The notes under the pieces are model-generated. The model was given only the letters and a program-made list of their open reading frames with translations. It searched no databases and had not been told where the DNA came from. From a virus, in IMG/VR virus record IMGVR_UViG_3300025543_000044, positions 1 to 49,347 of that record: a DNA stretch of 49,347 nucleotides; one strand, 5' to 3'. Within the stretch, counting starts at the first letter, position 1. The number at the start of each line of letters is the position of its first letter. Below are positions 25,460-40,497 of this stretch, piece by piece. Both the position numbers and the translations under genes were made by a program.

Positions 25460-27316
25460 ACCCCCGAGGAACTTGAGTTCTTCAAGATGATTAACGATAA
25501 CCCAACACAGTGGGGGGATTATGTCGCCTCGCAGACTCCTACTCCTGCCCCCGCCCCTGAAACTAGCCCCTATACACCCGAAGTACTTAACTTCTTTGAG
25601 CAAATAAACGACGACCCTGAAGCGTGGCAGAACTACGTTAATACCCAAAACACATCAGGGGGTGTAACTACACAGGTTGGGCCTGAAGTCACAAACATAG
25701 CACTTCCCGGTAATAGTCCCCCTACTCAAGGCGGCACACAACTAACGCTCCCGCAGTGGATAACTGAAGTGCAGAGAATAAACACTGAATACGACACTGC
25801 GCTAAACCAAGCGTATGGGAAGTACGACAGGAAAAAAGATGCTCGCCAATCGGTGTCCGGGCTTCGTGCCGATCTTGGGAACGAGATTAGCGGCTTGTTT
25901 GGTCAAACGGGGCTTAACCTAGGGGATATATACCAAGACGGGTACCAGCTTGATTTAGGGTTGGGGCAGGGTTTTGTGTACGGTGGCGGTAGTTATGAAA
26001 ATAGCACTATTGGTCGCGCCCCCGTTGGTAGTTACTCTGTTGGTAAAAATATTGATACAGATACTTTTCGGGACACCATATGGCCCACTGTCTCAACAGC
26101 CCTAAACGTAGCTGTACCGGGTTCGGGTACTGTACTGAGTGGGTTGGGGGGAGAACCAGATACTGGTTACGGGGGGTTTAAAACAGCCCTTGGTGCTGTT
26201 GGGGATGCTGTTGGTTCAGCGCAAAATAACAATCAGGAGCGACCCGAAGATGGTTACGAGACAGTTGACCCAACAGCGGGTATGACAGAGGCAGAAAAAT
26301 CCGCATTTGAGATATGGACAAGCGCTACGGACGCGCAACGAGCTGCTGTTATTGCCGGTATGGAAAGACAAACTGCCAACACTGGTAAACCCGGCCAAGT
26401 AGGTGTGCTAGATGACCCAAATGACCTGATAGAACCTTCAGACACTGCGGGAGATATTACTAAGCTACCCGGATTACCTCCACGACCAACGGATGCAGAA
26501 GGAGGCGGTGGTGGGAATGAAAGTAGCGGTGGTACTTCTAGTAACGCTGGGGGTAACACAGACACTGGGGAGGTTGGTGACGACTCCGTGGTGGACTACC
26601 AGATTTGGGAGGCTGTGGGGCGTGCTGGGTCCACTATCCTTCGGGACCGACTAATCAAGGAGTACGAGGACTATACTGGAAAGGCGTACGACCCGGATAA
26701 CGCCCCCAAACCTAACCAGACGGATACTAGTCAAGGTGAGATCGACCCCGACGCTAATGAGGGCACCCCCGAGGAACCCACAGACGACCTACCAGCACCC
26801 TATTACTGGGACTTCGTAGACGGTGAATGGACGCTAAAACAGGGGGATGCTCCCGATGGCACCGATACTGGCACAGATACCGAGAATACAGGTGGTAATG
26901 AAGGAGGTACGGGCGATACGGATACGGGTGGCACTGTTACGGTGCCGACAACTGGGACTGGTGGTACTGGCGGGGGTTCTGGTGGTGGTAATGGTGGTGG
27001 TAATGGTCGTGGTGACGGCGATGGGGATGGGGATGGCGACGGCGACGGCAGTGAGGAACTTATGCGTCTGCTGGGCTTGTTAGGGGTTAGCGGTAGGGGG
27101 GTTATCCCAGCACCAAAAGAAGACAAAGATGAAGATATTGTCCCCTATAATTTCAAGTCCAGATTCTTGGATGCCGCGCAGGAAGCCCGATTTGTACGTC
27201 CGTACGACTCAAAAGAACTTACTGCTAGACACAGTAAGATATTACACGCACTGCAAAATAGTGGTAAATTAAGCAAGAGTGACCGAGACTATATCGGGGC
27301 TTTGCTGGGGGATTGA
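25448..27316 (+). CDS. Probable internal virion protein (622 aa)
   Basis: The GTG start has CGGGAG eight bases upstream. The first 70 residues hold two copies of a module, PEELEFFKMINDNPTQWGDYV and PEVLNFFEQINDDPEAWQNYV, reused twice in the next gene. A middle part with a Gly/Ser-rich and mildly hydrophobic segment (about 215-260) follows, then an extended low-complexity region rich in Gly, Asp, Thr and Asn with a run of (D-G) repeats (about 505-540), and a C-terminal helical domain. There is no enzyme motif. The position, between tail genes and ejection-type proteins, suggests a virion-internal or tail protein. Confidence 0.62.
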   Translation: MSQYTPEELEFFKMINDNPTQWGDYVASQTPTPAPAPETSPYTPEVLNFFEQINDDPEAWQNYVNTQNTSGGVTTQVGPEVTNIALPGNSPPTQGGTQLTLPQWITEVQRINTEYDTALNQAYGKYDRKKDARQSVSGLRADLGNEISGLFGQTGLNLGDIYQDGYQLDLGLGQGFVYGGGSYENSTIGRAPVGSYSVGKNIDTDTFRDTIWPTVSTALNVAVPGSGTVLSGLGGEPDTGYGGFKTALGAVGDAVGSAQNNNQERPEDGYETVDPTAGMTEAEKSAFEIWTSATDAQRAAVIAGMERQTANTGKPGQVGVLDDPNDLIEPSDTAGDITKLPGLPPRPTDAEGGGGGNESSGGTSSNAGGNTDTGEVGDDSVVDYQIWEAVGRAGSTILRDRLIKEYEDYTGKAYDPDNAPKPNQTDTSQGEIDPDANEGTPEEPTDDLPAPYYWDFVDGEWTLKQGDAPDGTDTGTDTENTGGNEGGTGDTDTGGTVTVPTTGTGGTGGGSGGGNGGGNGRGDGDGDGDGDGDGSEELMRLLGLLGVSGRGVIPAPKEDKDEDIVPYNFKSRFLDAAQEARFVRPYDSKELTARHSKILHALQNSGKLSKSDRDYIGALLGD

Positions 27317-27318
27317 TT

Positions 27319-28938
27319 ATGGGTTGGGAAGATATATTCGAGAGTGGGAGAGAAGCTGCCAGTGGTGGGTGGGATTGGCTAACCACGGAAAAAAATGGTT
27401 CCACAGGTATTCAAGACCTACTGACCCTTGGCGGCGGTGCGGCAACTGCTGCGGGTTTATTTGACTCTGACCCACCCAAAATAGGCTATCAGGGTAAAAT
27501 TCCTGAGTACAACGCCATGCAACGAGCGGTAACGCCCAATAGCGATCCTAACCGAATGCCCGGCTCTTACGGGCAACGGTACTTCACAGACATGGTATAC
27601 GCTGGTAGTCCAGAGGAAGAAGCGGCACAGGGCACCGCTTTGGGCAATCAAAGGGCTATGCTAGAACTTGGTAACGCTGCTCAGCGAGACCGTTATGGGC
27701 CTCTCCTTAACAACTTAGGGAGTCTTTACAACAGTAATCGCGCTCCTGTATACGAAGCCCCTGCTGGAGGGATTGGTAATCTACCTTCCGGGGGAATCAA
27801 CGCGGCCTACGCTGGCCCACGCGGGACACGCCCCGCAAGTAGCTTACCCAGTAAAAACAATGATCTAATGGATTTCTACCAGAAGATCAACGACGACCCG
27901 GAAGCGTGGCAGGCGTACTTGGACTCCCAAACTGGTGGCGGTTCTGGTGGCGGTTCTGGTGGCGGTTCTGGTGACGGTTCTGCGGTAGACCCAGCATTTG
28001 CTGCGGCATACAGCGCACTTACTCCTGAGCAAAAGGCCCAGTTTGATGCCGCCACTCCCGAGCAGTGGGCTAATCTTGCACCTACACCCACCAAAAGCGA
28101 GCTGGGGTTAACTGACCGCGCACCGGGTCAAAGCTATAACGACTGGTATCAGACGCTTCCTGAGTACGGCCCTGACTTGCAGAAAGGTGACAAGTATCAG
28201 GATTACACAGGGTTCACCCGATACGCTGGCACTCCTTGGTCACAAGAAGCCCGTGACTTGCGGGATGCCCGTGACATAGCTACCAAGGGAATGTCCAGAG
28301 AAACAGACCAGTTCTATCCTACTTACATTGATGGCAACGGTCGTGAGCGACAGTACGATGGTTCAACATGGAAGGGGCCATTAGGCTCATCCGAGTTCAG
28401 CCGATTTTTGGAGTCTGAGGAAGGGCAGCAGTACAAGGGTGCTGCTAGTGGCTTGTTTGCTCCTAACCCAGACACTCAGGCTGCTGTAGATTGGCAAAAC
28501 CCTGTTGACCAACTCCGGTTAAAGCACATGGGTCTTGACCAAGCCTACGCTGAGAAAATGTGGCCCGACCAACAGACTACCCCCCAGAGCGGCACAAACA
28601 ATGATCTAATGGATTTCTACCAGAAGATCAACGACGACCCGGAAGCGTGGCAGGCGTACGTGGATTCCCAGAACAGTATGGCTATAGGTGGTATGGTCAA
28701 TGGCCCCGGTGACGGTATGTCAGACTCTGTACCCGCTATGATAGAGGGTCAGCAGCCCGCTGCTCTAGCCCGTGACGAGTTTGTAATACCCGCTGACGTT
28801 GTTGGTCATTTAGGGAACGGTAGTACAAATGCTGGTGCCAAAGAGCTTATGGCTATGATGTCGCGAATCCGTAAAGCGCGTACTGGTACGACAGCACAGG
28901 GGAAGCAAATAAACCCCAATAACTTCTTACCTAGTTGA
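27319..28938 (+). CDS. Probable internal virion protein with INDDPEAWQ modules (539 aa)
   Basis: The ATG at 27319 follows the previous stop by two bases and has GGGGGA upstream. It carries two nearly identical modules LMDFYQKINDDPEAWQAY (about 182-199 and 428-445), a Gly/Ser linker (GGGSGGGSGGGSGDGS) after the first, a long polar middle, and a C-terminal part with MAIGGMVNGPGDGMSDSVPA and LARDEFVIPADVVGHLGNG typical of aquatic-phage internal proteins. It probably belongs to the ejected core or tail lumen. The function of the module is unknown. Confidence 0.64.
   Translation: MGWEDIFESGREAASGGWDWLTTEKNGSTGIQDLLTLGGGAATAAGLFDSDPPKIGYQGKIPEYNAMQRAVTPNSDPNRMPGSYGQRYFTDMVYAGSPEEEAAQGTALGNQRAMLELGNAAQRDRYGPLLNNLGSLYNSNRAPVYEAPAGGIGNLPSGGINAAYAGPRGTRPASSLPSKNNDLMDFYQKINDDPEAWQAYLDSQTGGGSGGGSGGGSGDGSAVDPAFAAAYSALTPEQKAQFDAATPEQWANLAPTPTKSELGLTDRAPGQSYNDWYQTLPEYGPDLQKGDKYQDYTGFTRYAGTPWSQEARDLRDARDIATKGMSRETDQFYPTYIDGNGRERQYDGSTWKGPLGSSEFSRFLESEEGQQYKGAASGLFAPNPDTQAAVDWQNPVDQLRLKHMGLDQAYAEKMWPDQQTTPQSGTNNDLMDFYQKINDDPEAWQAYVDSQNSMAIGGMVNGPGDGMSDSVPAMIEGQQPAALARDEFVIPADVVGHLGNGSTNAGAKELMAMMSRIRKARTGTTAQGKQINPNNFLPS
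27855..27918 (+). repeat. 64-bp direct repeat in coding sequence, copy 1
   Basis: Sixty-four bases are identical to 28596-28659, and about 10 more match with few differences. The repeat encodes the INDDPEAWQ module. The identity extends to synonymous positions, so the duplication is recent or maintained by recombination. Confidence 0.93.
28596..28659 (+). repeat. 64-bp direct repeat in coding sequence, copy 2
   Basis: Second copy of the module repeat, 741 bases after copy 1 and in the same reading frame, so recombination between them would delete an in-frame 247-codon segment. Confidence 0.93.
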
Positions 28939-28948
28939 GGGGATAGAT

Positions 28949-30019
28949 ATGGCTAATCAAACTACTACAGACCCGTACACAGCTCCGCTGGACCCCAACG
29001 TGGGCAGTAGTATGGGTAACGAATCCTCCCTATCAAACTGGGCGGGTGACTATGTTACAGATATGTTGGGTAGGGGCGCTGCTCTGGCAGATCAACCATA
29101 CCAAGCGTACCAAGGCCCACTGACCCCCGGTATATCCTCACTACAAGACCAAGCATTTGCGGGCATTTCTGGACTATCGGTACCTGCTGGGAGTGCGGAA
29201 GCGGCCAACAATGCCGGGCAGATCGGGAACACTATGCAGGGTATGAGCTTTGACCCCAGCATGTTTAGTACTTCCCAGTGGACCGACCCCGGTGTGGCCC
29301 AGAGCTACATGAACCCGTATGTCCAGAATGCCCTCAACCCACAAATGGACGAAATGCGTCGGCAAGCCGAGATTACCCGCCTTAACGATGCTTCTAGGTA
29401 TACCAAGGCTGGGGCTTACGGGGGTTCACGGCAGGCTATTTCCGAATCTGAGGGTTGGGACAATTTGTCCCGCCTAATGAATGAAACAACTGGTAAGGGG
29501 TACTTAGATGCCTACAATACCGGGTCGGGGATATTCGCAACAGACCAAGACAGGGCGCTTAAAGCCGCTGGTATGGGCGAAGAATCTCGCCAGTTTGGTG
29601 CAAACTTCGGCCTTGATGCTCAAAAAGGGGCGCTTGATGCTGCTAAAGCGCAAGGTGCACTAAGTAGTACTCAGTTAGACGATGCCTTGCAGCTCCTACA
29701 GCAGCAGAAAAGTTTCGGGGACACTGAGCGCAGTATTCTTGGCGAGGGTATGGCGGCAGATAAAGCACAGTTTGAGCAGGAACGTGAGTACCCATATAAA
29801 CAGGTGCAGTACATGCAGTCCCTACTACAATCTATGCCCCTCGAAGCGCAGCAGAACTACTACCAAGAACCTAGCTACCTTAGCCAGTTTGCCGGGGGTG
29901 CCGGGGGTATTATGAACTTATATGACCAGATTTTTGGGGATAAGCAAGGCGGTAATGGGGGTAGTGGGGGTAATGGCACAGCGCCAGTAAATGATTTTGA
30001 AGCTGGGATAGGGCAATAA
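28949..30019 (+). CDS. Probable internal/ejection protein (356 aa)
   Basis: A helical protein rich in Gln, Ala, Gly, Met and Asn. It contains YMNPYVQNALNPQMDEMRRQ (about 130-150), an Arg/Ala/Gly-rich RYTKAGAYGGSRQAISES stretch and a long Gln-rich helix (QLDDALQLLQQQKSFGDTER), then a Gly-rich end. This pattern is common for proteins near the giant internal protein of aquatic podoviruses, where the short-tailed virion ejects proteins with DNA. No domain can be named. GAGGGG precedes the ATG. Confidence 0.65.
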   Translation: MANQTTTDPYTAPLDPNVGSSMGNESSLSNWAGDYVTDMLGRGAALADQPYQAYQGPLTPGISSLQDQAFAGISGLSVPAGSAEAANNAGQIGNTMQGMSFDPSMFSTSQWTDPGVAQSYMNPYVQNALNPQMDEMRRQAEITRLNDASRYTKAGAYGGSRQAISESEGWDNLSRLMNETTGKGYLDAYNTGSGIFATDQDRALKAAGMGEESRQFGANFGLDAQKGALDAAKAQGALSSTQLDDALQLLQQQKSFGDTERSILGEGMAADKAQFEQEREYPYKQVQYMQSLLQSMPLEAQQNYYQEPSYLSQFAGGAGGIMNLYDQIFGDKQGGNGGSGGNGTAPVNDFEAGIGQ

Positions 30020-30021
30020 TT

Positions 30022-32406
30022 ATGAACCAAGGTATCGACCAGTTAATAGCCCAACGAATGGGGAGTGCCGGGGGTAACCCGCAGGCACTACAGCAGCAAT
30101 ATAAGCAGTCAGGGGACATCGTGACCCTCATTGCTATGCAGAAAATGAAAACTGATCTGGAGAGGAAAGCGCAGGAAACGCAGCTCCAGATGCAGACCAC
30201 CCCTCAGACTATCGCCCAGCAGCGGGAACAGGAGGTGCTGGGGCTGACCAAGCAGGAGGTCTCCCAGCAGTTACAGCCGGGTATTCAACAGTTAGGCCAG
30301 CAGATGGCGCAGGCTCAACAAGCCCCCCAAGGTCCGCCACAGGGTATATCAAGTGTCCCCCGTCCTCCTATGGGTATGGCCGCAGGTGGTATTGTGGCGT
30401 TCCAAGAAGGTGGGGGTGTAGACCCCCGCGCCTTGCTAGAGGGTACGGATTCCCAATCTTGGAAGGGTAAGATCGCTAATGCGTTAAGTGCGGGTGCAAC
30501 TGCCCAAGAGATAGTAAAACTCCTTAAGGGTAACCCGTCCGGATTACGCGCACTTGCTGAGCTTACTTCAGCCAACGACAATACTGTTACGGAGGAGCCG
30601 GGAGTAACTACCAACCGCGTACCGCGTGAACCACAACGTATATACGGTGACGAGTTACCGGTAATGCCCCCTAACGGTATGGCTAGCGGTGGGATTGTTG
30701 GGTTTAAGGAGGGGGATAAAGTGCCCGCGCCTAAAGAGCGGATGTTTGGTTGGCCCACTGATACGGGCGGGTATAAGACCAACGCAAACGAAGACACACT
30801 CTACTCGACCCCCCAGATGCGCCGTAGGGCTATGCGGGAGCAGATACAGAAGGCTAAAGCGGAAGGCGCAACCCCGGAAACCGTTATAGGGCGTATTGGT
30901 AACAATCCAATAGCTATGGAGCTTGTTCGGGAGATATATGGCAGTGTCGTTGCTGATGTGGGTGTATCTGAGGGCGAACCTGCTGGGCCGGGAGTAACGA
31001 AGCCCCGTATACCCGTAGTTCCCCCAAAAGAGGGTATCAGCCCAGAACAAGCTAGAATAAACCAGTACGGCGACATAGGAGCTAGCTTAGAAAAATTAGG
31101 GCAGAACATATTGCCCGAAAGAATATTGCCCCGAACAAAGGACTATTTAGAATCGGAGCAGGGTATCGTGGATTTGATCCGGAAAGAAAACCCATCGCGA
31201 GCTACCGGCGCTAGTATCCGGAGTGCTTTGGGGGGCTTTATACCGTTGGGGCAAGATGTAGCTGCTGGCGCGTTGGGTACCTTTACGGCTGTACCCCGTG
31301 CATTGTGGGGGGCTGTAGGTGAAGATGTTAGTGATTTCGCAAGCGGGCTTTTAGGGGTAGAACAGGCACCGAAAAAGGGTACCTCCGTTACACCCGTTAC
31401 ACCCGCTAAACCAGACCTTCCCCCGGAACCAGACGCCAAGGAAGCCGCTATACAAGGTAGTGGTATAGGTGCGGTGGCTAATGCCCAAGGTACGCCTTCA
31501 GAACAGGACGCGATGCGTACCGAGATATATGACCGGCTGCGTAAACAGTGGGACACTGATCCCGAAGCGCGTAAAGCCGCTGCACGGGGTGAGTACAACG
31601 CGGACACCGCTGGGTCCAGAGGTATCGCCGCCCTGCAAGCCAGACGTGAGCGGGAAATGGAAGCTGCTATAGCCAAGCAACAAGACCCTGAGACGTTAAG
31701 GCGTAACAAGCTGAAAGCCACCCTGTTAGGTATGGGTAGTAGCCAAAGCCAGTACGCATCCAACGCGTTCAGTCGAGGTCTGGCAGGTTCTATGAACGAG
31801 CAGTCACGGCAGGATTCCGATAAGTTGGGGGGCATCGCTACGCTTAACAAAATGGCGGGTGATCGTATGGACAAACTACGTCCGCTGGAAGAAGGTGTGT
31901 TCAATGCCGGTAAAACCGCATACGACACTGCCAATGATAATGCGTACAAAGCCACTAATACGGGCGCGTTGATGTCCAACGCGGACCAAGTTGCTGCTTA
32001 TCAAGAAGAAGCCAATCGGTTGCGAGCAGACCTCAATAAAATTACTGCTTCGGGTGCTGATATGCAGCAGCTTTATGGGCGGCTTGGGGATGTGGAAAAG
32101 GAACTTGTTGGCATAGCTACTGCTAGAAAAAAGGCCGCTGATGAGGACGGTACTCTTATGACGCTTAATATGCAGAAGCAAAAAGCTATAGAAGACCAAG
32201 ATGAAAAAGAATTAAAACGTGTTCAAGATTTAATAAATATCCGAACAGCAGAAGTAAGTAGCGGTTGGGAAAAAGTTGAAACGGACCTTCGTGATGTGCA
32301 AAAGGTGTTACGAGAGAAACTAAATGTGCCAATATCACAGACTACAGGAAGTGGAACACCAGCAACGGGACTTAGCGCCAAGGCTTCCGCCTATATGGGT
32401 AAGTAA
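30022..32406 (+). CDS. Probable internal/ejection protein (794 aa)
   Basis: The 794-residue protein has a Gln-rich helical N-terminus, two copies of the short motif GM-A-(A/S)-GGIV-(A/G)-F-(Q/K)-EG (around residues 118-130 and 218-230), a middle with hydrophobic glycine/alanine stretches (LGGFIPLGQDVAAGALGTF, about 402-420) that could insert into membranes, and a long charged helical C-terminal third. Large amphipathic, helix-rich proteins preceding the giant protein fit the ejected core of podoviruses such as T7 gp14-16, but no sequence identity can be claimed. AGGG lies upstream of the ATG. Confidence 0.64.
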   Translation: MNQGIDQLIAQRMGSAGGNPQALQQQYKQSGDIVTLIAMQKMKTDLERKAQETQLQMQTTPQTIAQQREQEVLGLTKQEVSQQLQPGIQQLGQQMAQAQQAPQGPPQGISSVPRPPMGMAAGGIVAFQEGGGVDPRALLEGTDSQSWKGKIANALSAGATAQEIVKLLKGNPSGLRALAELTSANDNTVTEEPGVTTNRVPREPQRIYGDELPVMPPNGMASGGIVGFKEGDKVPAPKERMFGWPTDTGGYKTNANEDTLYSTPQMRRRAMREQIQKAKAEGATPETVIGRIGNNPIAMELVREIYGSVVADVGVSEGEPAGPGVTKPRIPVVPPKEGISPEQARINQYGDIGASLEKLGQNILPERILPRTKDYLESEQGIVDLIRKENPSRATGASIRSALGGFIPLGQDVAAGALGTFTAVPRALWGAVGEDVSDFASGLLGVEQAPKKGTSVTPVTPAKPDLPPEPDAKEAAIQGSGIGAVANAQGTPSEQDAMRTEIYDRLRKQWDTDPEARKAAARGEYNADTAGSRGIAALQARREREMEAAIAKQQDPETLRRNKLKATLLGMGSSQSQYASNAFSRGLAGSMNEQSRQDSDKLGGIATLNKMAGDRMDKLRPLEEGVFNAGKTAYDTANDNAYKATNTGALMSNADQVAAYQEEANRLRADLNKITASGADMQQLYGRLGDVEKELVGIATARKKAADEDGTLMTLNMQKQKAIEDQDEKELKRVQDLINIRTAEVSSGWEKVETDLRDVQKVLREKLNVPISQTTGSGTPATGLSAKASAYMGK

Positions 32407-35400
32407 ATGTACTCCACAGAAGAATTAAAGAAGGGGTTAAAAGCCGCTGCTGATGCGGGGGATTATGAGTCTGCCAACGAGATAGCAGAACTTCTCGACC
32501 AGCAGCTTAACGATCCGTATATACAACACATGCAGAAGTTTAAGCCCGAAGCTGGCCTGTTGGAAAACATCGGCTCTGGTCTGGGTAAGGGCTTTGTTGG
32601 GATGTTCGAGAGCGCTGCCCTTGGTGGCGCTGCGATGTTCGACGAGGAGACGGAGACCAAGCTGCGGGATATGATCCAGTCCGCTGGCGCTTGGGCCTCC
32701 CCCGAGGGCGGTAACCCTGACGACGTATCCTACCAACTATCCCAAGCCGTAGGTTCTATAGCCGCTGGACTGCCCGCCGCTGCGTTAGGCCCAGTCGCTG
32801 GCCCGCTCGCTGCCGGTGCGTTGTTTATGGGTGCCGGTGCTGGTGAGGCGAGTGAGCGTGCCCGCGCTGCCGGGGCTACGGAAGAAGAACGTACCCGCGC
32901 TGCCCTGCTGGGTATCCCCGTCGGTGCACTGGACATCATCCCCTATGGCCGCATGACCAAGGGGCTTAAGCACCCACTAATCCGAGACCTGTTTGAGAAG
33001 TTCGGCCCCGAGGAAATCAAGGGTATCGGTAGTCGTATCCGCAGCGCGGCCATTACGGGTGGTGTGGAAGCTGCACAGGAATCAGCCAGCGAGGCCGCGC
33101 AGAACCTCATCCAGAAGGGCTATGACCCCACACAGACACTGGGCGAAGGGCTTATTGGTTCCGCTGCTCTGGGTGGTGGCGCAGGTGCTATCGTCCAAGT
33201 GCTGGCTGACCTGTTTATACCGGGTACAGGTAAGGGCGGTAAAACGCCCCCTGAAGACAAAGAGGTTGAGGCGTTTCTGGGGTTTACTCCCGAGGAACAA
33301 GCCGCCCGCGATGAGGCGCAGGCACTGTTAGGTGACCCACAGGCCGACATGCTTCCCGTAGAGTTAGTCGATGCGTTAGAAGCAGAGGCACCAGAGGTAG
33401 TTACTCCAGAACAACAGTACGCACAGATAATGGAGGCTAAGCGGGCTAAAGCGGGTGCTGAGCCAGAGGTAGCAGACCCAGAACAGCTTAAGGCCAATGA
33501 AGAAGCACTGGCAGCACTCGACGTACGTATTGCTGATTTACGTGACAGGGCAAATACGCTAAAAGCGGCAGGTGCGGTAGACGGTGCGGTCCTAGCAGCA
33601 GAAATTAAGCTGGACGAGGCACTTAAAGAGCGCGAAGGGTTGCTAACCAAGGCTCCCCCCACCCCCACAACGCCCCTGTCAGTACCACAAGAACAGGAAC
33701 AAATATCAATAGAAGATGTAATTGATACATCTTTAACTACTGATATAGAACAGATGTACGCCGAAGAAGCTGATGCCAAGGAAACGGCGGATATTAATGC
33801 ACTAATAGCTGCGGAACAACAAGCGGCGGCGGAAGCAGATGCCGCAGAAACCGCCAAAATTGAACAGATGTACGCCGAAGAAACTGCTGCGGAGGAACTC
33901 AAAGCCCAGTCCTCGCAGGAGACATTGGATAACGCCCGCGCTACTGAGCAACAACAGCAGTCTGAAGCGGCCCGGCGAAAAGTTCTTGGCGATGTTATTG
34001 CGGGGAATGAAAACCCCGACCGTAACGTAGTAGCCCGTAACTTCTCAGCGGCTCTTACTGAAGCTGGGTTCGGGCGTCCTGAAGCTACCCCCGCTGAGCT
34101 GGAAGCTATTAAGCGTGCCGTAGACGTTCAGTTTGCTGTGGAGCAGGCCAAACCCATTGCCCCCGCCCCTGTTGCGCCCCCTGCTTCTACCCAGAACGAG
34201 GCAATGGAAGCGGCTATACCCGAGAAGAAGCAGCCTACGGGTCAGAGGCTACTGTTCCCTGAAATTACGCCCAAGGCTCCTCCTGTAGTCGAACGCAGAG
34301 AAGCTGCCGCACCGGAGCGGCCCAACATCCCTATAGACGACGGTCTCCTCAGTCGTATGGGCGTTGCCAAGACCGCTCCGGTGCGTAAGCGTCTGGTAGG
34401 TAAGAACCTCGGTGACGACGTTGATCTGGCGTTCACACAGAAAGAGCTTTTGGCATACGCTGAAAACCCCCGTGTGGCTAAAGCGGCCAAAGAAAACATC
34501 CAGAGCTTCGTAAAAGCCACCCAAGATACCCAGATACCTATGATGGGGCCGCGTGGTGGTATTACTACAGAAGCCAAAGCTAAGGGGGCACCCCGTGGAA
34601 CTGGAAAACCTGTTAGACCCGCCAAGCCTGATGTTAAACCGGCAGGAACTGGAGACAGCGTTCAGGGTACTGGACAGGACAGCAAGCCAAAACCCGCTAA
34701 GCCTAAAGACGCAAGTCCCGCCCGAGCTAAGCCAGCTAAACCCGCAGCAGTGGGAACACCTAGCGATGGTGCTAAACCTGCTAAAACTGGAGCAGTTGAG
34801 CAGCCGGATACACTAGACGTTGAGAGTTATATCACCCGTGCGGAGAAGGAATTGGCCCGTGAGGGCACTGCGGGTATGGACTTAGAACCAGATATTAACG
34901 CATTACGTGAAGCGCTTGAAGAAGTGGCTGAGTCTAACAGGCCCATCGGTAACCAGATTGAAGAAGCTAACGACGTATACGAACGGGAAATAGCGCCTAT
35001 TCGGGACATGGCGGATGCTCGTGAGAAGAAGTTCACGGAAGCACAAGCCGAGTTTGAAAAAACTGGCCCAGAAAAGACCGTAACAGTACCCAGTAAGAAA
35101 GCACTAAAAGAAGGTTACGAGACCCGCAAAAAACTGTGGGAGATGAAGAAGGCGGCAACCAAGTCAGCTAAGGAGACAAAAGATGAAGCAGCCGTGCCAG
35201 AGGTGCGAGAAGGCGAGACAGAAACTACGGGAACTGAAGCAAAGAGTACTCCCAAGCCTGCCGCCAAGCCGAAGAAAACCGCCGCCGAAGAACCCGTAGC
35301 TGGTTACGGTAAGGGCAACAAAGTATTCACGGAAGATCGGGCGAATAAAGCCCGTGAAATGCTGCTTAAAAAGCGGGGTACCCTACGTACCGGGGTTGAC

Positions 35401-38400
35401 CCGGAAATGATGCAGGCGGGTATAGACCTCGCGGGGTTCCATATCGAAGCGGGAGCGCGTCAGTTTGGTGCTTTCACCAAAGCTATGGTAGATGACGTTG
35501 GTGACTGGATTAGGCCATACCTGCGTGGGTGGTATGAAGCTATTAGGTACAGCCCAGAAATATCCCCAGATGTGGCAGCGGAATTGACACCCACTGCGGA
35601 GATAGATTCAGGCGAGAAAGCCCGCGCCGAAGCTGAAGCTGTAGCGGAGGAACCTGTACGTACTTTTGCCAGTGAACCTGCGCGACAGGCGGCGGAGGAT
35701 AATGATGTTACCCTTGAGGAGTTAACTGAACGTGGTTGGGAAGGCACTGGTAGAAATACTAACTGGACCAAACGTGATATAGAAGATTATGTAGCCGTGC
35801 GGTACCGGGATAACGTGACCCGCCCTGCTTCTGGAAAAGGTAAATCTTTAACTGCTGAACAACTTAAGGCAGAAAAGGTCCGTAAAGAGACGGCACCCCC
35901 AAAGGAAGATGCCGCAGCCCGTAGAGCCAAACAGAAGGAACAAGACAAGGCAGATCAAGCGGCGGCTGATAAGGCACCCAAAGGCAAAAGCACTACGTTC
36001 TCTAAGAGTTTAGGTAAGCGACCTTTCGGGTTCCTGAGAACCAAGAAGTACTTCACCGATGCAGACCTACGCAAAATTAAAACCCTGCGGGATGCTGTTT
36101 TCCCCCTCAAGCTCCCACTGGACGCTACTGATGCACGGAAACACGCGCACAAGATCGCGCTCGCTGCCCAAAAGTACCTCTATGACTATAGGGTAGCCGG
36201 GCCTGCTGATGCGTTTGCGGCAGCGGCACATGAAGTTGTGTTTGAGGCACCACAGTATCGTCGCGGTATAGGGTCGTCAGAACAGGAGATAAAGTTCTAC
36301 AGAGGTACGGGTAAAACCCCTGCTAGCATGGTGCTGGAGTGGGCGGAGAACAACCTGAGTGAGGGTGCTGGGAAGTTCATAGAAGAACAGATAGCCCTTA
36401 ATGCCAAAGGTAACGTAGGTATTAAGAACATAACGCGGGGCGACCGGATAGCTGCCCGGATAAAGCGGGAGGAAATACAGGCGGAAGCCATTCTATCTGC
36501 TCTGGATATGATTGGTAAGCTACAGGGCAAACCCAGTAGCAAGACCGAGGATGCCGCGCTTGATGCCGCCCTAGAGAAGTTGGAAGCCGCCAAAACCCGT
36601 GGCGACTCCGATGCTGTTAAGGTACTAAAAACCCAGATCGAACGTATTGAGACTGCGATGTGGCAGAATGCGAGCGGGAGTTCTAAGGACGGGAACAAGA
36701 TACTCAAGTCAGTCCTTAAGAAGTTAGGTGAACTCAACCTAGTTACCGATGCTATCTCGGCGCTGGACGTGCCCCTGCACCCAAGCGTTACCCAGCATCT
36801 GCTTCAGGGCAACCTGAAAGACGCGCTCAATGCGATGTCCCTTATCGGCCCCCATACCGAGGTGCGTAAGTTAGCCCGCAAGCTAACCGACAACATTGGG
36901 GAAACCAAGGTCGAGCTGGTAGACAACCTGAAGAACGCCGCTGGTAAGTCAGTGGCAGGGCTGTTTGACCCCAAGACCAACACGATCAAGCTGGACAAGG
37001 GTGCCGCTAACTCTACGCACGTTCTCCTGCACGAGTCTATGCACGCTGTAACGTCTCATACGCTGGCTAACAAGGGGCACCCCTTAACTATAAAGCTGAA
37101 CCGCCTGTATGAAGAAATAAAAGACGAGCTGGACAGCTATTATGGTGCCGAGTCCCTTGATGAGTTTGTGGCGGAGGCGTTCAGTAATCCGGAATTTCAA
37201 GAAAAACTGGCATCTATCTTCGGGCGTACCAAAGAGAACCAGACTGCCCTACGCCGACTTTGGGATACCATCAAGCACTTCGTCCAGAACCTCGTCGGTT
37301 ACAAGACCGTGGACAACACCAGCTATTCTGAGTTCGGTGACATGATTGAGGGGCTGATGGGTACCGCCCCGGAGACCCGGTTTGCTGGGGAACTTGCCCT
37401 GACTATAGCCGAAGGCAATGCCGAGGAGATTTTCAAAAAGGCGGGTAAGGCATACCGGCAGGGTGTGACCAAGTTGACTCGGGGTAGCCCTGAGTGGACC
37501 CGCGTTATTGACAAGGTAGCAGCGTTCTTTACGCGGGGTTTGCCGGATAACCTAACCCGTGCATTCTGGGGGTTCATGCCGTCACAGGCTATGGCCGATA
37601 CCATGATAGCTATGGGGTTCCCCGAGGAGATTTTTGATCTCCATAAGTTGCTTGAGAAACAGCACGCGGATATGCAAGCGGTTGATAACGGGCTGGACGC
37701 AGTAAAAGCTGGGCTTAGTAAGTGGCTTAAAGATAACCCAGAGAAGAAGGAACTATTCGACAAGCTCACAACCGACAGTAGTATTAAGCAGGTAGACCCG
37801 TCGCGTGGTGAGAAGTATTACAAAGACAGGGCAACATCCAACAACGCTACCGAGTGGGACCAGAAACGGTACGAGGACTTCAAAGAACTGAAGCCCCGCT
37901 GGGATGCCTTAAGAGAAGACGGGCAGAAGCAGTATAAGCTGTTACGCGACTCCTATAAGCGGCTTTACGAAGAACTGCGGGAAGCGGTGTTGTCTAAAGT
38001 TAAATCCGTGACTGACGATGAAGTTACTATTACTAAGTTACGGACTGAAATATTCGAGAAGATATTCAACGAGAACCTGATCGAACCCTACTTCCCGCTG
38101 ACTAGGGAAGGTGAATACTGGATAGCGTTTAACGCCTACCCACCCGGCAAACCTGCGGAGCGGGTTAAGATGGCGTTTGAGAACACCTACGCCCGTGACC
38201 GGTTTGTAGACGAAGTGCTTAAAACTGAGCCTAACATCGAACGTAAAGATGGTAGTGCCGTTATAGAGTACGAGTCCAGACCACAGAACTTCAAACTGGA
38301 TAAGGCACCACCTACATCGTTCGTAAACGACGCGATTAAGCTGATTACTACCAACGCTAAGAAGAACGACGATGGTTCTATGAGCGATGAGACTAAAACT

Positions 38401-40497
38401 ACTTTGGAGCAGTTAACCCGGTTGTTCGTTGAGTCCCTGCCAGAGTCCTCTTACTCACGGTCTCTGCAACGCCGTAAAGATTACGGGGGTTACACAGAGG
38501 ATGCGATAATAGGTTTTGAGCGCCGTGCGTATGACTTGGGTCGCCAAGGGGTGCAGACGCGCTTTGGGCAGACGCTCCGTAAGCAGTATGAGCAGATACT
38601 GGAGAAAATAGAGGCAGACCCGAAACTCAATAAACACCCCCGTAAGGATGCTGTTAAAGATGAGTTAGGTAAACGCGTGCAGTTTGCCGTCGGTGACAAC
38701 AACAGTGGGTTCGACCGGTGGGGACGTAGGCTTAACCGTATAGCGTTTACAGGTACTATTGGTTTTAACCCGTCGTCGGCTATTGTTAACCTGACGCAAA
38801 TACCGATGGTGGTCATGCCGTTCTTGGCGGGCAAAACAGACTACGCTACGGCCTATGCAGCATTACGTACAGCGGGTAAGTTGTTTACCGGTGCTGGGAA
38901 CGAGCATAAGATACCCGTATACGGTACCGAGGAGGAGTCGTACCTCGTAGAGGCTAATCGGTTTGTCCCGTCTATAGACAACTACTACGAAACGGAGTTT
39001 GGTAAGAAAGAAGTACTTAGCGGGAAAGATAAGGGGAAAATGGTCATTGACCGGGGTAATAGCAAGCTGAAGCTCCGTACTGATATGGACTTTGACCCCG
39101 ATGAGATTGTATGGCGCGGCTGGAAAGAAAACGGTGTACGTAAAGAGTTCACTAAAGCAGAGTTACTAGAAGAACTTACACCCTTCGTCGAGGCAATACT
39201 GAGTAGGGGACTGCTAAGCCGGTCGTTCTTCTACGATTCTCTGGGTGCCGAAACCTCGGGTAAGAGTAAAGACTTCGGGGACAAAATGAGCGCGTGGGGC
39301 GGGTTTATGTTCCACGCCGCCGAGCGTATGAACCGCCAAACGGCCCTCACTGCTTCTTATCTTAACGAGATGGTGCGCCTGAAAACAAACCCCATAGCTT
39401 CCAAAGGAGAAGTCGGGCTTACCCACGCGGAGCAGCAGAAGTTGGCGGCAGAGAACGCCATGTACGACACCCAGCAGACCAACGGTGGTGCGGTATTGGA
39501 TACCACAGCACGTTACGCACAGAACGGGCTTGGTCGCGTAGCTATGATGTACAAGATATTTGGCCTCCAGATGTACTACACCCAAGGCAAGTTACTCGTG
39601 CAGGCGCTTGGTGCTGAAAAAGACCCTGTGTTAAGGAGTCAGGCTAGGGCGCAGCTAGCGCTCATACAGGCGCATGTAGTGGCTATCGCCGGGGTAAGTG
39701 GCCTAACAGCTTACGGTATGCTCTCCAGTTTGTTTGGTATGTTCGATGACGATGATGAACTGGATACCGATAGCCGTTGGCGTACAGCTATGGGGGAGAC
39801 TGCATACAAAGGCGGTATTAACGCCCTGACGCAGTTGTTAGGTGGTGAGGGCGTTGACGTATCCAGCAGGGTGGGCCTGTCGCACTTGTTAATTGGCAGT
39901 AACCGGTACGACTTTGACCCGTCTGCGGAAAAGACCATCGTCAAGACGTTGGGTGGCCCTGCATACGGCTACTTATCCCAAGCACTGTTCCGTGGCGTGC
40001 CCGACATATGGGAGGGGGAGTACCAGCGTGGTATTGAGAACGTCCTACCTGCTGCCTTCCGTAATGCTGCAAAGGCTACGTTCCGCTACGGTCCAGAGGG
40101 TGCCAATACCCGCCGGGGAGACCCCATTATGGGGGAAATGGGCGTAGGTTTGCTTGCTGCCCAGTTCCTAGGCTTCGCACCCGCAGAATACACCCGGAAT
40201 CAGGAGCGCAACCAAGTTCTGAAGGGTATCGACCGTGCGGTTAACGAGGACCGCTCCATGCTTACCCGTAAGCTGTACATCGCTATGCGTATGGGGGATA
40301 CGATGGGGGTGCAGGAACAGTATAAGAAGATATCGGACTTTAACAAGAAACACCCGAACTTCAGGCTGGACCCGAAATCTATCAAAGCCTCACTGAAGCA
40401 GCATATGAAAACGTCGCAGAACATGCACAACGGGGTGCTGTTCTCGCCCAAGATGCGGGCAACGCTTGAGCAGTTAGGTACAGGTTGGGATAATTAA
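32407..40497 (+). CDS. Giant polyvalent internal virion protein with zincin motif (2,696 aa)
   Basis: The largest protein here has several layers. Residues about 115-180 and 248-270 are Gly/Ala-rich hydrophobic segments; 320-960 is low-complexity Ala/Glu/Lys/Pro; 975-1045 resembles a domain seen in large phage and plasmid polyvalent proteins (DLAGFHIEAGARQFGAFTKA). At 1542-1546 the motif HESMH (HExxH) with DEFVAEAF (1585-1592) looks like a zinc metalloprotease site. Residues about 2120 (FNPSSAIVNLTQIPMV) and 2422-2450 are hydrophobic, and the C-terminus is helical. It probably is packed in the head, ejected first and helps DNA cross the envelope; protease targets are unknown. It ends at the convergence hairpin. 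Confidence 0.75.
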   Translation: MYSTEELKKGLKAAADAGDYESANEIAELLDQQLNDPYIQHMQKFKPEAGLLENIGSGLGKGFVGMFESAALGGAAMFDEETETKLRDMIQSAGAWASPEGGNPDDVSYQLSQAVGSIAAGLPAAALGPVAGPLAAGALFMGAGAGEASERARAAGATEEERTRAALLGIPVGALDIIPYGRMTKGLKHPLIRDLFEKFGPEEIKGIGSRIRSAAITGGVEAAQESASEAAQNLIQKGYDPTQTLGEGLIGSAALGGGAGAIVQVLADLFIPGTGKGGKTPPEDKEVEAFLGFTPEEQAARDEAQALLGDPQADMLPVELVDALEAEAPEVVTPEQQYAQIMEAKRAKAGAEPEVADPEQLKANEEALAALDVRIADLRDRANTLKAAGAVDGAVLAAEIKLDEALKEREGLLTKAPPTPTTPLSVPQEQEQISIEDVIDTSLTTDIEQMYAEEADAKETADINALIAAEQQAAAEADAAETAKIEQMYAEETAAEELKAQSSQETLDNARATEQQQQSEAARRKVLGDVIAGNENPDRNVVARNFSAALTEAGFGRPEATPAELEAIKRAVDVQFAVEQAKPIAPAPVAPPASTQNEAMEAAIPEKKQPTGQRLLFPEITPKAPPVVERREAAAPERPNIPIDDGLLSRMGVAKTAPVRKRLVGKNLGDDVDLAFTQKELLAYAENPRVAKAAKENIQSFVKATQDTQIPMMGPRGGITTEAKAKGAPRGTGKPVRPAKPDVKPAGTGDSVQGTGQDSKPKPAKPKDASPARAKPAKPAAVGTPSDGAKPAKTGAVEQPDTLDVESYITRAEKELAREGTAGMDLEPDINALREALEEVAESNRPIGNQIEEANDVYEREIAPIRDMADAREKKFTEAQAEFEKTGPEKTVTVPSKKALKEGYETRKKLWEMKKAATKSAKETKDEAAVPEVREGETETTGTEAKSTPKPAAKPKKTAAEEPVAGYGKGNKVFTEDRANKAREMLLKKRGTLRTGVDPEMMQAGIDLAGFHIEAGARQFGAFTKAMVDDVGDWIRPYLRGWYEAIRYSPEISPDVAAELTPTAEIDSGEKARAEAEAVAEEPVRTFASEPARQAAEDNDVTLEELTERGWEGTGRNTNWTKRDIEDYVAVRYRDNVTRPASGKGKSLTAEQLKAEKVRKETAPPKEDAAARRAKQKEQDKADQAAADKAPKGKSTTFSKSLGKRPFGFLRTKKYFTDADLRKIKTLRDAVFPLKLPLDATDARKHAHKIALAAQKYLYDYRVAGPADAFAAAAHEVVFEAPQYRRGIGSSEQEIKFYRGTGKTPASMVLEWAENNLSEGAGKFIEEQIALNAKGNVGIKNITRGDRIAARIKREEIQAEAILSALDMIGKLQGKPSSKTEDAALDAALEKLEAAKTRGDSDAVKVLKTQIERIETAMWQNASGSSKDGNKILKSVLKKLGELNLVTDAISALDVPLHPSVTQHLLQGNLKDALNAMSLIGPHTEVRKLARKLTDNIGETKVELVDNLKNAAGKSVAGLFDPKTNTIKLDKGAANSTHVLLHESMHAVTSHTLANKGHPLTIKLNRLYEEIKDELDSYYGAESLDEFVAEAFSNPEFQEKLASIFGRTKENQTALRRLWDTIKHFVQNLVGYKTVDNTSYSEFGDMIEGLMGTAPETRFAGELALTIAEGNAEEIFKKAGKAYRQGVTKLTRGSPEWTRVIDKVAAFFTRGLPDNLTRAFWGFMPSQAMADTMIAMGFPEEIFDLHKLLEKQHADMQAVDNGLDAVKAGLSKWLKDNPEKKELFDKLTTDSSIKQVDPSRGEKYYKDRATSNNATEWDQKRYEDFKELKPRWDALREDGQKQYKLLRDSYKRLYEELREAVLSKVKSVTDDEVTITKLRTEIFEKIFNENLIEPYFPLTREGEYWIAFNAYPPGKPAERVKMAFENTYARDRFVDEVLKTEPNIERKDGSAVIEYESRPQNFKLDKAPPTSFVNDAIKLITTNAKKNDDGSMSDETKTTLEQLTRLFVESLPESSYSRSLQRRKDYGGYTEDAIIGFERRAYDLGRQGVQTRFGQTLRKQYEQILEKIEADPKLNKHPRKDAVKDELGKRVQFAVGDNNSGFDRWGRRLNRIAFTGTIGFNPSSAIVNLTQIPMVVMPFLAGKTDYATAYAALRTAGKLFTGAGNEHKIPVYGTEEESYLVEANRFVPSIDNYYETEFGKKEVLSGKDKGKMVIDRGNSKLKLRTDMDFDPDEIVWRGWKENGVRKEFTKAELLEELTPFVEAILSRGLLSRSFFYDSLGAETSGKSKDFGDKMSAWGGFMFHAAERMNRQTALTASYLNEMVRLKTNPIASKGEVGLTHAEQQKLAAENAMYDTQQTNGGAVLDTTARYAQNGLGRVAMMYKIFGLQMYYTQGKLLVQALGAEKDPVLRSQARAQLALIQAHVVAIAGVSGLTAYGMLSSLFGMFDDDDELDTDSRWRTAMGETAYKGGINALTQLLGGEGVDVSSRVGLSHLLIGSNRYDFDPSAEKTIVKTLGGPAYGYLSQALFRGVPDIWEGEYQRGIENVLPAAFRNAAKATFRYGPEGANTRRGDPIMGEMGVGLLAAQFLGFAPAEYTRNQERNQVLKGIDRAVNEDRSMLTRKLYIAMRMGDTMGVQEQYKKISDFNKKHPNFRLDPKSIKASLKQHMKTSQNMHNGVLFSPKMRATLEQLGTGWDN

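Follow-up and report, generated by a model that had tools for sequence, protein, structure and literature searches.

A predicted zincin metallopeptidase domain in a giant polyvalent phage protein and its possible role in cargo delivery

Genomic Setting of the Giant Protein

Does the giant protein that closes the late operon of this virus contain a zinc peptidase, and what could such an enzyme do within so long a chain? The window, i.e., the whole stretch of DNA analyzed here, is a virus record of 49,347 bases with genes for terminase, portal, and head on its left side and, on its right side, genes for primase, helicase, and DNA polymerase in convergent orientation. The following features define the locus:

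27313–32406, plus strand: three syntenic genes directly upstream of the giant gene (541, 356, and 794 residues), in an order kept in relatives
32407–40497, plus strand: giant PLxRFG/polyvalent protein of 2,696 residues, closing the late (virion) operon
37030–37044, plus strand: HESMH (residues 1542–1546), two predicted zinc-ligand histidines and the predicted catalytic glutamate
37159–37182, plus strand: DEFVAEAF (residues 1585–1592), with Glu1586 as the invariant predicted third ligand and Glu1590 conserved in at least 90%

The giant gene is an uninterrupted ATG-to-stop reading frame, and both motifs have the positions and spacing given in a first-pass annotation of this DNA. Any HExxH occurs in 1.9% of random shuffles of the protein, and HExxH followed 20–60 residues later by E[FLM]xAE occurs in none of 5,000, so the motif pair is hardly a chance product. 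The mixed layout described in the same annotation was also seen: an Ala/Gly-rich N-terminal part is followed by stretches rich in A, E, K, P, T, and Q up to approximately residue 1200. The three upstream genes probably encode further virion proteins. In the 541-residue protein (27313–28938), the C-terminal 87 residues (455–541) are 63–67% identical in relatives, and the rest far less so. Residues 918–2696 of the giant protein are also encoded, with 100% identity, by a second contig, IMGVR_UViG_3300007540_000244.

Conservation and Sequence Matches of the Zincin Domain

Conservation, profile, and model place the domain as follows:

36769–37386, plus strand: zincin metallopeptidase domain (residues ~1455–1660)

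Five columns are invariant in an alignment of 47 homologues, namely His1542, Glu1543, His1546, Thr1549, and Glu1586, and all but Thr1549 belong to the predicted zinc site. The first homologue search was biased for counts of HExxH because one seed contained this motif. A bias-free repeat used the seed T[IL]G[FA]N[VPI]S[ST][AV], located in the C-terminal module several hundred residues downstream of the zincin. Among the 80 best loci of 328 relatives, with the near-identical copy of the window set aside, 66 had at least 230 in-frame upstream residues; all 66 showed a zincin profile match directly upstream, with HExxH intact and then an E-F-x-[AS] motif. Thr1549 is not kept throughout this set.

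Pfam gave only sub-threshold zincin matches over the HESMH region (Tox-MPTase4, E 0.001), and the whole giant protein had no direct match among PDB sequences. The zincin profile, however, matched solved virion proteins: 9sfn, annotated as ‘Internal virion protein’ (3.8e-23), PhiM1 gp48 in 8vb2 (3.7e-14, with residue alignment), and gp10 in 23sg (1.3e-13). Among annotated phages, tblastn located the zincin region in Cellulophaga phi14:2 gp76, other crAss-like phages, and Parlo, and weakly (E 0.02–0.5) in virion RNA polymerases of Schitoviridae and in internal core proteins of phiKMV-like phages. HExxH and a later E-[F/L] were present in seven of the seven tblastn relatives examined. The site had been described as metzincin- or gluzincin-like; the gluzincin assignment stands, with a glutamate as third ligand, whereas the metzincin one fails, since the motif reads HESMHAVTSHT, in which threonines replace both the glycine and the third histidine of HExxHxxGxxH/D.

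Predicted Structure of the Zincin Domain

Structure prediction, which the first-pass annotation had proposed as a check, returned a confident zincin core. The AlphaFold model of residues 1406–1688 has pLDDT values above 90 across most of this core, which comprises (in model numbering) an N-terminal helix (79–91), three strands (96–100, 113–116, and 121–125), and two C-terminal helices, one carrying HExxH (132–149) and the later one the third-ligand glutamate (179–188), with an extra helix (154–169) between them. This is the arrangement of the zincin MPTase core. The best fold match in the PDB was the PhiM1 ejectosome protein (8vb2, residues 289–517), with a Z score of 9.3 (141 residues, 3.7 Å), followed by C1 of the N4 virion RNA polymerase (vRNAP), residues 2124–2367, with a Z score of 7.7 (168 residues, 4.3 Å). 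Further matches were SPRTN (Z 5.7), lethal factor, small gluzincins, and toxin-type zincins (Z ~5), with the antirestriction protein ArdC and the HExxH oxygenase domain of ChlB lower (Z 3.5 each). Foldseek by itself ranked these proteins weakly (8vb2, E 0.28), whereas their sequence-profile matches were strong. A zinc ion may be bound at HESMH and Glu1586, as the fold alignment to zincins and the residue alignment to 8vb2 would allow.

Domain Organization and Virion Location

Four further regions describe the chain:

32542–32757, plus strand: residues 46–117, the sole part of the N-terminal region that BLAST aligns with close relatives (38–42% identity)
35284–35655, plus strand: residues 960–1083, a module without a Pfam family, found in DarB-like giants and Bacteroides phage BS-TP4
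37663–38028, plus strand: LPD39, large polyvalent protein associated domain 39, residues 1753–1874 (Pfam E 2.1e-12, above cut-off)
38086–40458, plus strand: PLxRFG domain, residues 1894–2684 (NCBIfam NF032893, E 3.4e-85, 286.9 bits against a cut-off of 100)

The PLxRFG motif at residue 1894 reads PYFPLTREGEYW, and LPD39 was matched in 22 of 29 aligned members. Finding both domains bears out the earlier assignment to the polyvalent proteins, a class in which zincins are the most frequent domain (Iyer 2017, PMC5512222). The last 1,250 residues, which hold the zincin and the C-terminal module, are collinear in close relatives at 25–38% identity, and there is almost no conservation across the first 1,400, save for 46–117. 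Thus, the zincin–PLxRFG pair is constant and the N-terminal part variable, an observation that is new here. The 960–1083 module is 44–49% identical to its counterparts in Parlo and Skulduggery. It also occurs in gp3 of phage BS-TP4 (5,391 residues) and partly accounts for the PHROG labels ‘endolysin’ and ‘DarB-like’.

DarB-like giants carry another zincin motif at a distance of 218–338 residues ahead of PLxRFG, compared with 228 for the motif of the window protein; it is either HExFH with EE[FL]xAY or HExxxH with EEV; HExxxH forms were also described by Iyer et al. (PMC5512222). No HExxH lies 60–330 residues before the PLxRFG region of PBC5 orf23. This stretch shows HNHPSGGPLSPYD, which is similar to the JAMM/RadC motif. 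The slot before PLxRFG thus usually holds a metallopeptidase, of changing type, which is likewise a new observation. Parlo gp81 has two zincin motifs of different clades, at residues 1195 and 2557, and the window-like one is far from PLxRFG.

By analogy, the window protein would be located in the virion, because phi14:2 gp76, which has the same domain, is structural by mass spectrometry, PhiM1 gp48 and N4 gp50 have been solved as virion structures, the DarB-like gp69 of JC1 was detected in virions by mass spectrometry (PMC9144972), and the gene occupies a late-operon position. The best solved relatives of the zincin, PhiM1 gp48 and N4 vRNAP, are ejected virion proteins, in agreement with the ejection role suggested at first. 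The best explanation is a polyvalent protein of the virion interior that is ejected, and HESMH very probably marks a zincin domain within it.

Proposed Role of the Zincin and Alternatives

The chain may be built as a variable N-terminal cargo, a zincin of the N4-vRNAP-C1/PhiM1-gp48 family, and an LPD39–PLxRFG carrier module. At the border between carrier and cargo, the zincin could cleave its own chain or ejection proteins packaged along with it, and such cleavage would either prepare the chain for passage through the narrow tail channel or liberate the cargo after entry. That the protein is an ejected polyvalent protein whose zincin cleaves its own chain or co-ejected proteins, thereby releasing cargo, has in our judgment an even chance of being correct. 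We infer proteolysis, its substrate, and its timing; the exact conservation of the zincin beside the carrier region suggests a role in cargo delivery or unloading. Cis cleavage has been proposed for polyvalent MPTases by Iyer et al. (PMC5512222). Yet N4 vRNAP shares the domain and enters the virion without being cleaved (PMC5512222), and the virion model of PhiM1 gp48 comprises 1,103 residues, zincin included; therefore, cleavage before packaging is not general. The C-terminal region of N4 vRNAP acts as a repressor of transcription by this enzyme (PMC12633501); on this ground, freeing the cargo at a later stage would be plausible. Virion maturation, as raised in the first-pass annotation, or cis processing is possible. 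No conserved cleavage site was noticed, short of a systematic motif search.

The same zincin might instead act as an effector, cleaving proteins of the host after injection, e.g., DNA-bound, defence, or transcription proteins, an option listed by Iyer et al. (PMC5512222). SPRTN, a cutter of DNA-bound proteins, is among its fold neighbors, as are the toxin-type zincins and ArdC. Strict pairing with PLxRFG across diverse phages, however, fits a carrier-tied role better than a host target, and no evidence was found for a substrate, nor for the earlier idea that envelope or defence proteins of the host are cut; we regard this reading as rather unlikely. It is unlikely that the domain is no longer a peptidase and serves as a metal-stabilized structural unit or catalyzes a different HExxH reaction, for example 2-oxoglutarate-dependent oxidation. 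The intact packaging of N4 vRNAP, the mention of HExxH in other enzymes by the N4 authors (PMC12633501), and the ChlB match speak for it, but the oxygenase ranks below peptidase folds, and the catalytic glutamate is kept with the ligands in all 66 proteins from the 80 best loci, beyond what metal binding alone needs. Finally, HExxH could have arisen by chance in so long a chain, as it did in 1.9% of the shuffles, but conservation, fold, and solved relatives contradict this reading, and its probability is negligible.

For cleavage of the chain itself or of co-ejected proteins, a broader scheme is offered tentatively: PLxRFG could be a general ejection carrier, and the preceding metallopeptidase (several zincin clades, perhaps JAMM-like in PBC5) would bring about self-release, setting the exchangeable cargo of the N-terminal part free after entry. 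The prediction that ejected phage proteins contain proteases dates from 2017 (PMC5512222), and the literature searched held neither an assay of this zincin clade nor a report of proteolysis for any of its members. The obligate zincin–PLxRFG pairing and phiKMV-like ejectosomes of known structure provide small, well-defined targets for a protease assay.

Comparison with Known Systems

The domain class itself is already known (PMC5512222; for Cbunavirus vRNAP also PMC8472413). The window protein resembles polyvalent proteins with zincin-like MPTases (PMC5512222) in HExxH with a glutamate on a later helix, a three-strand core, and a giant LPD-bearing chain; its zincin differs in being tied to a PLxRFG carrier, with no DNA-modifying or ADP-ribosylating domain recognized. 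Phage P1 DdrB is likewise a virion protein with an MPTase domain, and it is cleaved to 76 kDa before packaging (PMC5512222). The podophage giants of the DarB-like/PLxRFG type (Parlo, Skulduggery, SopranoGao, and Bcep22-like) share PLxRFG and/or the 960–1083 module and giant size, although most have another zincin clade before PLxRFG. Pfam and NCBIfam recognized neither an SNF2 helicase nor an adenine methylase in the window protein, which rules out a DarB function, and the PHROG label reflects shared modules.

N4 vRNAP C1 (9pnr/9pnt) is alike in fold, HExxH, place before a large helical C-terminal region, and ejection, but the window protein has no RNA polymerase. A 22% BLAST alignment to the N4-like CB3 vRNAP beyond the zincin was not trusted, and hhalign found no similarity between the C-terminal module and the C-terminal regions of CB3 vRNAP, VP93 gp34, or Villemi gp40. 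A PDB fold match of this module (best Z 6.8) spans just 57 residues and was not accepted as a relationship.

Neither the whole protein nor its N-terminal part had a Pfam match to a lytic transglycosylase of the T7 gp16 type. The first-pass annotation had set polyvalent proteins against T7 gp16; the polyvalent class holds, but the contrast was too sharp, as the zincin is found in phiKMV-like gp16 equivalents and the C-terminal module may be similar too, its predicted structure matching those predicted for ‘internal virion protein D’ from CRP-4/CRP-5 (E ~4e-8, TM 0.37–0.41). PhiM1 gp48 (8vb2), the tetrameric ejectosome protein, and these equivalents are internal virion proteins of half the window protein’s length in which profile and fold predict the same zincin, a finding that is new here; no paper in the literature searched names it there. 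Residues 268–528 of the PhiM1 protein, overlapping the match at 289–517, were published as endolysin/exotransglycosidase-like (PMC11440229). In 8vb2 chain A, profile and fold place a zincin in 268–528, where the sequence contains HEAAH and, further downstream, HEF. Homologues carry the label ‘peptidoglycan lytic exotransglycosylase’ in some phage records. A Pfam search of the VP93 and Villemi relatives yielded no transglycosylase. A zincin in the phiKMV-like ejectosome suggests that the published endolysin-like label should be corrected.
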